A DNA stretch of 38,094 nt from Pseudomonadota bacterium. GTDB taxonomy: Bacteria; Pseudomonadota; Alphaproteobacteria; CADEGL01. The position numbers were made by a program, and so were the translations under genes. The DNA lies in contig JAQCGR010000003.1 in assembly GCA_027619995.1 (NCBI GenBank), positions 1 to 38,094 on the forward strand, read 5' to 3'. Of this stretch, positions 8,358 through 33,942 are shown one piece after another; the first letter of the stretch is position 1; each line of letters begins with the position of its first letter. Below the pieces are notes generated by a model. It had not been told where the DNA came from. It did no database searches and saw only the letters and a list, made by a program, of their open reading frames with translations.

Positions 8358-8615
8358 ATGATCGACGGCCCTTATGGAATGGCCGGCCTGCCTCGCGCAC
8401 GCCGCCAGAATCGACGCAGACCTCGCCCCCAGCGGGTGCCCGGCACGGTGAAATCGCCCTGCACCGGCGTCTGCACCCTGGACGAGAGCACCGGCTTCTG
8501 CCGCGGCTGTCACCGCAGCCTGGTGGAAATCCGCGACTGGATGATCCTGGACGACGACGACCGCCGCGCGATCATGGCCAAGGTCGTCGTGCGCCGGGGC
8601 GTGGTGCCGGAATAA
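8358..8615 (+). CDS. DUF1289 domain-containing small protein
   Basis: 85 aa; Cys motif SPCTGVCTLDESTGFCRGCHRSLVEIRDW matches the DUF1289 pattern; 10 nt downstream of cydB. Confidence 0.85.
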   Translation: MIDGPYGMAGLPRARRQNRRRPRPQRVPGTVKSPCTGVCTLDESTGFCRGCHRSLVEIRDWMILDDDDRRAIMAKVVVRRGVVPE

Positions 8616-30044: not shown

Positions 30045-31070
30045 CTAAGCCGCCGCACGTTCCGATCCACCACCCGCAACCGCGGCCAGGGCCCGCTCCA
30101 CGACCTCGGGGCCGGCCCCGGTCGCATGAACCTCCGTGCTGAGGATACGCCGCCATTGCCGTGCGCCGGGTACGCCCTGAAACAGCGAAATCATATGCCG
30201 GGTGACGGTATGCAGGCGCAGGCCGGCGCCGAGTTGTCGCTCGATATAGGGCAGCATGGCAGCCACCACCTCGGCCCGGCTCGGCACCTCATCACCGGCA
30301 CCGAAGAAACGGCGGTCCGCGCCCGCCAGGAGATAGGGGTCGCGGTAGGCCGCGCGGCCGATCATCACCCCGTCGACCGGGCCGAGATGGCCTGCCGCCG
30401 CATCCAGATCGTCGATGCCGCCGTTGATCGAAACGTCGAGATCCGGCCGCTCGGCCTTGAGGCGATGCACCAGTTCGTGGCGCAGGGGCGGCACGCTGCG
30501 GTTCTGCTCCGGACTCAACCCTTCCAGCCAAGCTTTGCGGGCATGGACGATGAAACGCGTACAACCTGCGGCCGAGACGATCTCCACAAAATTCGACAGG
30601 GCGGGCCATTCCTCCTGCTCGTCGATGGCGATGCGCGATTTCACGCTGACCGGCAGGGGCGTGGCCGCGCGCATGGCCGAAACGCAGGCGGCCACCGTCT
30701 CCGGCTCCGCCATCAGGCAGGCGCCGAAGCGGCCCGATTGCACCCGGTCGCTGGGGCAGCCGACATTGAGGTTGATCTCGTCATAACCGAAATCCGCGGC
30801 AATCCGCGCGCATTCGGCCAAGGAGGCCGGGTCGGCGCCGCCGAGTTGCAGGGCGACGGGATGTTCGTCCGGGTCGAAGGCGAGATGGCGTACGCGGTCG
30901 CCGTGAATCACGGCATTGGCCGTGACCATCTCTGAATAGAGCAGGGTATGGCGCGTGATACGCCGGAACAGATAGCGGCAATGCCGATCGGTCCAGGCCA
31001 TCATCGGGGCGACGGCCAGGGGCATGGGATAGTTCAGGGGATACCGCAGTGATTCGCTCGGCATTGTCAT
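30045..31070 (-). CDS. dusA: tRNA dihydrouridine(20/20a) synthase
   Basis: VAPMMAWTDRHCRYLFRRI, EINLNVGCPSDRVQSGRFGACLM, RFIVHARKAWLEGLSPEQNRSVPPLR. Start at 31070 or 31064. Confidence 0.93.
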   Translation of the reverse strand: MTMPSESLRYPLNYPMPLAVAPMMAWTDRHCRYLFRRITRHTLLYSEMVTANAVIHGDRVRHLAFDPDEHPVALQLGGADPASLAECARIAADFGYDEINLNVGCPSDRVQSGRFGACLMAEPETVAACVSAMRAATPLPVSVKSRIAIDEQEEWPALSNFVEIVSAAGCTRFIVHARKAWLEGLSPEQNRSVPPLRHELVHRLKAERPDLDVSINGGIDDLDAAAGHLGPVDGVMIGRAAYRDPYLLAGADRRFFGAGDEVPSRAEVVAAMLPYIERQLGAGLRLHTVTRHMISLFQGVPGARQWRRILSTEVHATGAGPEVVERALAAVAGGGSERAAA

Positions 31071-31171: not shown

Positions 31172-32056
31172 TCAAGCGTAGTAGATTGCCCCGGGAACGT
31201 AGGCCTCTGGAAGGTCGAGGCCCGGGGGCATATCCCTGTTCAGCTGAAAGCGCTCGGGAAGAAAGTGCGTGTTCGGCCCGTACGTCAAAGATGCGTTCGG
31301 CGGCGAGATCGGCGTTCGAATTTCGATTCGTCCCAGCCTTGTCTCAACGACCCGCGTCGCGTTTTCGTCACTCAATGTCGGACCCAGTTCCGGAAGAAAA
31401 GCAGGCAATTGCATGCCTTCGCGCGATCGAAGTTCGGCGGCACATCGCTCGCTTTGCGCGCGGACACAGAATCGAATGTTCGCCGAACCCAGCCCCAGGT
31501 CATAAAGCGGGCACTGCCTGTCGGCGCGTCGGATCGCTGCAGTATCCGGCCCACGCAAGGTCAGGCTGTCGACGGCCCGCAGAGCCCGCTTCGCCCTTGG
31601 CACGGCGAGGACGATTCTTTCCGTCCCGCTGAGACCTGATGCCCCAGTATCCACCCTCAAAGCTCGAACGCCCTGATCGCCAGTAAGACGCAAGGCGGCG
31701 CGCGGCGTCACGGCTTCGATCGTGGCATCCTTGCGGGTCACGACAACAACTTCGTCGCGGTCACGGATGAATTCGGCGACGGCACCGTATACGCCAAACA
31801 CCCATGTTCCCTCACCGGATCGCAGCGTCCGCTCGACGTATTCCAGGATGTCGATTTCGAGCCACGGCAAACGGCTCACGACGATTCCGAGTTCGGCGAA
31901 CCGGGCGAGGAGACCATCCCAAACGCGCTGGCGCTGGCTTTCGGCCATCGTGCGCCAGTTGGATAACTCCTCTGCCGTCCTGCCGCAGCCCAGGCAGTAA
32001 TCACTCGATCCGCCGAATCGGCAGATGCCGACGCAAGGACTCGCGATAGCTGTCAT
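31172..32056 (-). CDS. DUF1289-domain protein fused to a long C-terminal region of unknown function
   Basis: 294 aa; N-terminal MTAIASPCVGICRFGGSSDYCLGCGRTAEELSNWRTM is DUF1289-like; the remaining ~240 aa were not recognised. 24 nt downstream of cbtA, same strand. Confidence 0.82.
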   Translation of the reverse strand: MTAIASPCVGICRFGGSSDYCLGCGRTAEELSNWRTMAESQRQRVWDGLLARFAELGIVVSRLPWLEIDILEYVERTLRSGEGTWVFGVYGAVAEFIRDRDEVVVVTRKDATIEAVTPRAALRLTGDQGVRALRVDTGASGLSGTERIVLAVPRAKRALRAVDSLTLRGPDTAAIRRADRQCPLYDLGLGSANIRFCVRAQSERCAAELRSREGMQLPAFLPELGPTLSDENATRVVETRLGRIEIRTPISPPNASLTYGPNTHFLPERFQLNRDMPPGLDLPEAYVPGAIYYA

Positions 32057-32079
32057 GGAATTGCGTGAACCGCCTGCAT

Positions 32080-32826
32080 TCAGCCAAGCCGGCGATAGAA
32101 TGCCGCCGAAAATCCGCCGATCAGCACCCAGGAAATGGCGCTGACGACAATGGATGCTGCGACAAAGTGCCCGGCGAGTTCCGGAGGCACGGCGCCGCCG
32201 ATTGCTTCCGGATTCGGCGCGCCCACCACGTGCGGGATAACCATGGCCAGGACGCCGGCGGCCTTCCAGTAAAGCTTGTCAGTAAAGACCAGCAGGCCCA
32301 GACCGAGCGCCGCGCCGACGGCCACAAAAACCCACCATTGCTGGCGCGCCCCGAGTTCGGCCGCCATGGTTCCGGGAAGTTCCGGCGGCAAGCCAAGACC
32401 TGGCGCAAGCGTGAAGACGACGAAACCGGCTGCGCCCCACAGGACGCCCGTTCCCACTGAAACAGGCTTTCCGCTAAGGACCATTCCGGCGACAACGAGA
32501 AGGGAGAATCCCGTTGCGACGAGGATGTTCGCCAATGTCGTGTATAGCGTCCGCTCCAATCCGTCCGCCGGAGCCCAGCCTTCCTCTTCCCCCATGACCG
32601 GCGCGCCATCCTCGACACGATGCACGAGTGTCGCGGCCGAGTTGTCGAAAACGGCCGGCTGGAAGCCGTTTGTTCCCGGCAACGTAGCGCTGTGCTGGTG
32701 TCCGCCGCCTTCATATTCCTCGGCATGCAGGATAATCGGCGTGGTGGTGACGCTCTGAATCCCGGAAATCAGGACACCCACAAGCAAGCCGGCGGCAATA
32801 GCCGCCAGCAAAACCCGTCGAATCAT
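32080..32826 (-). CDS. cbtA: CbtA family cobalt transporter subunit
   Basis: 248 aa membrane protein; MIRRVLLAAIAAGLLVGVLISGIQ..., FTLAPGLGLPPELPG, QQWWVFVAVGAALGLGLLVF, IPHVVGAPNPEAIGG; follows CbtB and a cobalamin riboswitch. Confidence 0.93.
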   Translation of the reverse strand: MIRRVLLAAIAAGLLVGVLISGIQSVTTTPIILHAEEYEGGGHQHSATLPGTNGFQPAVFDNSAATLVHRVEDGAPVMGEEEGWAPADGLERTLYTTLANILVATGFSLLVVAGMVLSGKPVSVGTGVLWGAAGFVVFTLAPGLGLPPELPGTMAAELGARQQWWVFVAVGAALGLGLLVFTDKLYWKAAGVLAMVIPHVVGAPNPEAIGGAVPPELAGHFVAASIVVSAISWVLIGGFSAAFYRRLG

Positions 32827-32839
32827 GTTTCGTGATCCG

Positions 32840-33037
32840 TCAGTGGCAGGGAAAAGCGAAGGCATGCCGTGCATCGTGCGCGGCGTTGTGCAGCACGTTC
32901 GGGCTGGCGAAGCCTGTACCTGCGATCAGAAACACGCCAAGCAGAATGGCGGCAACGGCAGCGTAGATTGCATTGACTCTTTCGCCAGTGACAACGGGAT
33001 GCGACTGCGCCGATGACGTCTTGGAGATTGGTTCCAT
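32840..33037 (-). CDS. cbtB: CbtB family cobalt transporter small subunit
   Basis: 65 aa; one transmembrane helix and His-containing C-terminus VLHNAAHDARHAFAFPCH; strong RBS AAAAGGGGAG upstream. Confidence 0.92.
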   Translation of the reverse strand: MEPISKTSSAQSHPVVTGERVNAIYAAVAAILLGVFLIAGTGFASPNVLHNAAHDARHAFAFPCH

Positions 33038-33121
33038 CTTGATCTCCCCTTTTGGCGCACCCTGCGTGCGCTATGGGCAAAAGTTAGCCGATGAGCGAAA
33101 AACGAGGCTCATCGACGATCT

Positions 33122-33290
33122 GACGAGGCAGGTCTTCTGGCTTCCGGATCCTCGCCCGATGCGTTCCGCCTTCCCAGCGCGACAGCGCCAGTGGCGTGAT
33201 ACGAACGCAGACTCCCCGGTCACAGCTGCGGGGCAGCGCCGGATTCGCACCGGCTTCCCTCTTGCCCGATTCACACCAGGCACCCCATCA
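33122..33290 (-). ncRNA. cobalamin (B12) riboswitch
   Basis: Minus strand contains GGTGCCTGGTGTGAATCGGGCAAGAGGGAAGCCGGTGCGAATCCGGCGCTGCCCCGCAGCTGTGACCGGGGAGTCTGCG...GCCACTGGCGCTG...GGGAAGGCGGA...GAAGCCAGAAGACCTGCCTCGTCA, the conserved B12-box elements in order, directly upstream of cbtB. Confidence 0.95.
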
Positions 33291-33501
33291 CAATTTTTAG
33301 CCTAGCTACCTTTAACAAGACGGGTCAACCTTACAAGACCCCTCGGGTCATTCATAAGCCCGCCAGATACTCCCAGAGCACCCTGTTCGACGGCGATCGT
33401 CTCGCGGGATAGAGCGGCATCATTTCGGGACGCGGCAATGAACTACGCGCCCTCGGACGTTGAACTGGTGTTTGATCCGGGCCCAGGCGAAAGGCGACCT
33501 C

Positions 33502-33942
33502 ATGGCCCATACCTATCTGTCTTCCTGCCATTGCGGAAATCTATCCGCGCGCTACGAGTGCACCAGCGCCACGGGAGCCTTGCCCCTGCGCGCCTGCGGC
33601 TGCGGGTTCTGCCGCAAACACAATGCGCGCACGACCTCGGATCCCAAGGGGCGCGCCGAGATCGTGGTGCGCGATCCCGCCGCGCTGACGCGCTATCGCT
33701 TCGGCCAGCGCACGGCCGATTTCCTGGTCTGCGGCAATTGCGGCGTCTATCTCGGCGCCCTGTTCACGGATGAGGACGGCGCCGCCTACGCCACCCTGAA
33801 TGCCAATACCTTCGCCAATGCCCAGGCCCTGCCCGACACGGTCGAGACGGTTCAGTACGAGCAGGAATCGGCGGCTGAGAAGAATGCCCGGCGCCGGATC
33901 CGCTGGACCCCTGCCAGCCTGCGCATCGCCGGCGTGGATTAG
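33502..33942 (+). CDS. GFA/CENP-V family zinc-binding protein
   Basis: MAHTYLSSCHCGNLSARYEC...LRACGCGFCRKHNARTTSDPKG...FLVCGNCGVYLGALF. Confidence 0.85.
   Translation: MAHTYLSSCHCGNLSARYECTSATGALPLRACGCGFCRKHNARTTSDPKGRAEIVVRDPAALTRYRFGQRTADFLVCGNCGVYLGALFTDEDGAAYATLNANTFANAQALPDTVETVQYEQESAAEKNARRRIRWTPASLRIAGVD

Follow-up and report, generated by a model that had tools for sequence, protein, structure and literature searches.

Operons for the proposed cobalt transporter CbtAB are found under cobalamin riboswitches, a class through which adenosylcobalamin represses gene expression. A comparable arrangement is known from S. meliloti, where the Co(II) importer CbtJKL has a BtuF-like protein under a B12 riboswitch (PMC7689651). 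CobW (COG0523) is already known as a dedicated Co(II) chaperone (PMC7689651), and the btuBFCD cluster of Methylorubrum extorquens pCMU01 has been described as riboswitch-preceded (PMC3621897). The locus presented here is not a new kind of system: the cobalamin riboswitch and the CbtAB transporter are already known and both domains of its third gene product are catalogued. Little is known about how cobalt and imported corrinoids are handled on their way from the inner membrane to the late B12 enzymes, and a recurrent B12-linked family with invariant charged residues is a concrete candidate for this gap.

The window, which is the whole stretch of 38,094 nucleotides that was analysed, contains a cobalamin riboswitch, cbtB, cbtA and a third gene on the minus strand. 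The riboswitch aptamer (Rfam: RF00174; 33110..33302, minus strand) lies in the 5' leader of the operon and matches the full covariance model (positions 1-189) with 116.1 bits (E 1.2e-28) against a gathering threshold of 31.5 bits. The leader from the aptamer to cbtB (33038..33109, minus strand), with a T-rich hairpin stretch and a ribosome-binding site (AGGGGAGATCAAG), is the presumed expression platform, and cbtB starts 72 nt past the aptamer, downstream of a strong ribosome-binding site (AGGGGAGATCAAGATG). CbtB (32840..33037, minus strand; 65 aa) matches PF09489 (63.4 bits, E 2e-17) and TIGR02459 (70.5 bits, curated cut-off 64.4 bits). CbtA (32080..32826, minus strand; 248 aa) matches PF09490 (147.2 bits, E 1e-42) and TIGR02458 (228.6 bits, curated cut-off 182.9 bits); its longest open reading frame runs from 32874 to 32080, with the ATG at 32826 as the likely start. 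Both are proposed cobalt transporter subunits, 'proposed' being also the grade of these families in NCBIfam. The third gene (31172..32056, minus strand) encodes a protein of 294 aa in which the Pfam profiles find a fusion of DUF1289 and DUF6925. None of these four matches is due to chance, and the Rfam, Pfam and TIGR matches confirm the preliminary description of a riboswitch, cbtB, cbtA and a 294-aa reading frame on one strand with short gaps; the gap of 13 nt between cbtB and cbtA was given correctly, and the one between cbtA and the fusion gene is 23 nt and not 24 nt.

With other CbtAB operons the window shares the riboswitch-cbtB-cbtA order and CbtB and CbtA sequences that pass the curated thresholds; it differs from them by its third gene, a feature of about 2% of the class genomes with CbtA. 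The next gene on the same strand, dus (tRNA dihydrouridine synthase by Pfam; 30045..31070, minus strand, likely ATG at 31070), was considered as an operon member and set aside, as its likely start lies about 100 nt past the fusion gene and its GC3 is closer to the rest of the window; it is probably outside the B12 operon. Divergent from the operon, at 33460-33942 on the plus strand, lies a 160-aa reading frame with CxC/CxxC pairs that looks GFA-like by eye and has no Pfam match above the cut-off.

The GC3 of the three operon genes (31172-33037) is 0.64-0.70 compared with about 0.83 for most other genes of the window, and DUF6925, CbtA and CobH are all absent from the four closest among the genomes compared, all congeneric or confamilial with it (one close relative being only 87% complete). 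Together, composition and absence suggest that the operon was gained laterally. Although the assembly is a draft of 418 contigs, the embedding of the operon in a contig of host-like composition argues against mis-binning. The same genome encodes CobN and CobH, the latter split across two contig ends, and by reading of the open reading frames has a second riboswitch followed by cobinamide-kinase-like and CobW-like genes, which fits a B12 module that was gained laterally.

The N-terminal domain of the fusion protein is DUF1289 (Pfam: PF06945; COG3313) at residues 6-52 (E 1.4e-16, 60.5 bits with a cut-off of 27 bits), in agreement with the Cys motif noticed earlier at the start of the reading frame. 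Its cysteines C8, C12, C21 and C24 (window numbering) are unchanged in all 56 aligned fusions, which is compatible with metal or Fe-S binding, and the domain matches the COG3313 'predicted Fe-S protein' models of a viral fold library, which yielded nothing else. No phage homologue was found. A second, single-domain DUF1289 protein of 85 aa (SPCTGVCTLDESTGFCRGC) is encoded at 8358-8615 on the plus strand of the window.

The remaining part, about 230 aa which the preliminary description could not assign, matches DUF6925 (Pfam: PF21973) at residues 72-290 (E 7.6e-44, 150.7 bits with a cut-off of 27 bits). The match spans profile positions 4-223 of 300, and the helices at the C-terminus of the long unfused form are missing from the fused one. 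Six residues (G88, D171, D186, G188, R199 and R243) are unchanged in 76 of 76 aligned DUF6925 members, and H262 and H264 are nearly invariant. The first His of the GPHTH motif (262) is present in 52 of 56 fusions; the window copy differs from nearly all members by Asn at this position and reads GPNTH at 260-264. AlphaFold2 gave confident models for the window protein (pLDDT 93.5, pTM 0.91) and for an unfused full-length homologue (pLDDT 93.1, pTM 0.91), and Foldseek found no match at E <= 0.001 in the PDB for either. The C-terminal region thus matched a Pfam family, with no significant PDB fold match, and did not match a well-characterised unrelated enzyme. Sliding-clamp matches of the fusion and DUF6925 models had a probability below 0.15 and were taken as noise, 3na2_D was listed with a probability of 0.80 over 87 columns (the structure's own function is not named), and the sequence search of the PDB with the fusion protein returned a chance match only. 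We noticed neither a signal peptide nor a transmembrane segment in the fusion protein, which we infer to be cytosolic.

A scan of genome contigs with the single sequence returned zero relatives, and an alignment of five fusions as query found 381. We analysed the best 80 of 381; having been picked by similarity to the fusions, they do not sample the family at random. Among these 80 are about 58 full-length fusions that cover both domains (query positions ~1-6 to ~287-294); the DUF1289-DUF6925 fusion is widespread. The fused loci among the best 80 of 381 belong to Alphaproteobacteria, and unfused DUF6925 reaches Betaproteobacteria, Pseudonocardia and Actinomycetospora in the same set. One locus labelled Anaerolineae (L052) is nearly identical to an alphaproteobacterial one (L049) and probably mis-binned, and another labelled 'Klebsiella pneumoniae' (L120) looks mis-binned or mislabelled. 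In the sampled class genomes (Alphaproteobacteria), DUF6925 was found in 25 of 385.

For the genomic context we used 55 fusion loci from the best 80 of 381 relatives, calling riboswitches with an nhmmer model built from Rfam-called examples and neighbours by Pfam on representatives. Within 5 kb of the fusion there is a riboswitch in 37 of these 55 loci, and a riboswitch or a B12/cobalt gene in 50. With 3.8 riboswitches per genome on average, the chance for a random gene is 1.0%; after dereplication at 80% identity the proportion is 32 of 46 fusions (best 80 of 381; binomial ~3e-53). In 19 of the loci the riboswitch lies upstream, on the strand of the fusion and at most 5 kb away, and in 13 it is divergent within 1.5 kb (best 80 of 381); direct control is thus plausible for some of the fusions only. 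Directly upstream of the 55 fusions (best 80 of 381) are BtuF-like genes (15), CobO (9), CbtA (8), CobC (2) and CobW (2). ZnuA/ABC-3 genes occur at six and SBP_bac_5 ABC genes at four of these loci from the best 80 of 381, and further partners of the fusion are BtuF-like/FecCD, CobN and cobyrate synthases; in a Cereibacter record it is near cobyrate/cobyrinate synthases and CbiM. Judged by this gene neighbourhood, the fusion protein very probably belongs to a cobalt/corrinoid acquisition regulon, and very probably plays an overlooked part in cobalt or B12 acquisition by bacteria.

The link to cobalt or cobalamin that the preliminary description had drawn is borne out by these 50 of 55 loci (best 80 of 381); its narrower proposal, an accessory factor for CbtAB specifically, does not hold in general. 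Of the 55 fusions (best 80 of 381), 8 have CbtA as the gene immediately before them, and among the ~86 of 385 class genomes that have CbtA only two, the window genome and G169, carry DUF6925 beside it; an architecture unique to CbtAB operons was rejected on these counts. Since CbtA is only one of several fusion partners, the protein would belong to the B12 regulon and not to CbtAB specifically. The eight CbtA-linked loci among the best 80 of 381 are those of the Hyphomicrobium group, and no riboswitch was found in the six of them checked with Rfam. In the tree, the Hyphomicrobium clade is well supported and does not include the window fusion, whose own exact position is poorly supported; the fusions most similar to it (46-48% identity) are found in the context of ABC importers. 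The window CbtA shares 26% identity with Hyphomicrobium CbtA and 58% with the CbtA of G169, a genome in which DUF6925 is unfused. From this divergence, adjacency to CbtA arose at least twice and probably more often. Four genomes (G027, G124, G187 and G205) have CbtA and no detected CobN or CobH; de novo B12 synthesis may thus not be what CbtA serves in every case.

Besides the fusions, unfused DUF6925 ends operons at many loci in the order riboswitch, BtuB-like receptor, BtuF, BtuC, BtuD, DUF6925, and a riboswitch lies within 10 kb of DUF6925 in 13 of the 25 DUF6925 genomes of the class sample. In the annotated record of pCMU01 the DUF6925 gene likewise follows btuD; the riboswitch-preceded transporter operon (PMC3621897) is the likeness to the window, and the differences are an unfused DUF6925 and BtuBFCD in place of CbtAB as the transporter. 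Records of Paracoccus aminophilus and Azospirillum show related arrangements, a Phaeobacter record has the order TonB receptor-SBP-permease-ATPase-CbiZ (adenosylcobinamide amidohydrolase)-DUF6925-ExbB-ExbD, and a Novacetimonas record has DUF6925-cobyric acid synthase. Eight of the 25 DUF6925 genomes (one only 68% complete) lack both CobN and CobH, and in six of the eight DUF6925 has a riboswitch and a BtuB-like receptor as neighbours. Cobalt chelation cannot be what the domain serves in these genomes, so a corrinoid role is favoured there.

Our main reading, to which we give a probability of roughly 0.5, is that the fusion protein is a cytosolic accessory factor for corrinoid or cobalt handling, encoded in a B12-repressed and probably laterally acquired cobalt cassette. 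When adenosylcobalamin is scarce, the riboswitch would permit joint production of CbtB, CbtA and the DUF1289-DUF6925 protein. CbtAB is predicted to bring cobalt in, the DUF6925 part may bind a corrinoid that is being imported or has just been made, or Co2+, the Cys4 module of DUF1289 would be used for metal or Fe-S binding, and the protein would hand its cargo on to late B12 assembly. Both the expression response to B12 and the cobalt import are inferred here. As to the cargo, the evidence from salvage-only genomes and from CbiZ as a neighbour points to a corrinoid, and corrinoid handling by DUF6925 has in our view chances a little short of even; the neighbouring CbtA, ZnuA-like and CobW genes, and the fact that fusions are enriched in producers, point to cobalt. 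The many fusion operons with a BtuF-like binding protein share this protein and B12-riboswitch control with S. meliloti CbtJKL, and differ from it in that no S. meliloti plasmid is among the DUF6925 records listed (30 of 49). BtuF-like importers such as CbtJKL may carry Co(II), so a BtuF-like neighbour is no proof of a corrinoid cargo (PMC7689651).

A cobalt metallochaperone, the idea put forward in the preliminary description, which would take Co2+ from CbtAB, CbtJKL, ZnuABC-like or Nik-like importers by way of the DUF1289 cysteines, GPHTH or both and give it to CobW or CobNST, seems unlikely, though it survives best among the alternatives. It draws on CbtA directly upstream of 8 of 55 fusions as well as in the window, on ZnuA/ABC-3 genes in six, SBP_bac_5 ABC genes in four and CobW upstream in two (all best 80 of 381), and on CobN in the window genome. 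CobH, which marks predicted de novo B12 producers, is found in 41 of 45 fusion genomes, as expected for makers of the corrin ring, versus 13 of 21 genomes with the unfused form (Fisher P 0.013, not corrected for kinship), an enrichment that would also suit a fused form working on cobalt. However, the eight genomes without CobN or CobH have unfused DUF6925, mostly beside BtuB-type receptors, and the window protein has N262 in place of the first GPHTH His that 52 of 56 fusions possess. CobW moreover already fills the role of a Co(II) chaperone (PMC7689651); the fusion protein resembles it in its B12 link and proposed metal delivery, but has no match to a CobW or P-loop GTPase domain in the Pfam scan.

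Less probable again is a corrinoid-processing enzyme for cobalt reduction before adenosylation, axial-ligand removal or a side-chain step, with DUF1289 as Fe-S/redox module. The position of the fusion directly 3' of CobO at nine loci (best 80 of 381), of DUF6925 directly 3' of CbiZ in Phaeobacter and near cobyric acid synthases in Cereibacter and Novacetimonas would suit an enzyme, as would the many invariant charged residues (D171, D186, R199, R243) and the resemblance of the DUF1289 fold to COG3313. Searches of Pfam and the PDB, however, revealed no similarity to flavin, SAM or other cofactor families, and this explanation overlaps with that of an accessory factor. The least likely alternative is a general tetrapyrrole binder acting on corrinoids as the cytoplasmic carriers HemS/PhuS, whose genes end TonB-receptor/ABC heme-uptake operons, act on heme: the operon position of DUF6925 matches theirs, PhuS (4imh) is in the Foldseek list with a probability of 0.41 and exceptional fusion loci adjoin hemB/hemC and CtaA-like genes, but the PhuS match falls short of significance (E 0.5, TM 0.24) and does not figure among the 50 best for the second model, Pfam gives no PF05171 match and the HemS profile comparison is negative (hhalign probability ~0.1%).

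Beyond the accessory-factor reading for the window protein, we tentatively suggest that DUF6925 as a whole might be an undescribed class of cytosolic cobalt-corrin handlers, either a B12 counterpart of HemS or a corrinoid reductase/ligand-removing factor. It would have a fold unmatched in the PDB and serve importers and the late B12 pathway in Alpha- and Betaproteobacteria and Actinomycetes, with the DUF1289 fusion as the producers' preferred form; on balance, this generalisation is somewhat doubtful. In the literature searched there is no mention of DUF6925 and no function for DUF1289, DUF6925 or CbtF/CbtG, so DUF6925 appears to be undescribed there as a B12-regulon family. The family occurs in the tractable species Hyphomicrobium facile, Phaeobacter inhibens, Methylorubrum extorquens CM4, Paracoccus aminophilus and Cereibacter azotoformans.

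Five of the 55 fusion loci (best 80 of 381) have no B12 neighbour, which speaks against the main reading. By reading, one of them (L068, the same locus as L031) has the order hemC-like gene, hemB, fusion, SOUL-like heme-binding gene, hinting at a wider tetrapyrrole link; in another (L097) a CtaA-like (heme A synthase) gene directly follows the fusion, and two of the five fusions face a TrhO-like gene. A family of about 100 aa is encoded directly 5' of the BtuF-like gene and the fusion at three loci (L054 8895-9197, L057 1661-1963, L059 8618-9139), the L054 member having no Pfam match. At three others (L056 10472-11014, L071 10864-11400, L104 8224-8796) a hydrophobic protein of about 180-190 aa adjoins the fusion; it is probably a membrane protein and possibly an unrecognised transporter component, and its L104 member has no Pfam match. 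Another example of recurring neighbours is the homocysteine S-methyltransferase together with Rieske oxygenase/reductase genes (betaine-demethylase-like by reading) near riboswitches at L051 (11273-12367), L056, L061 and L073, which suggests a B12-sparing methionine route.
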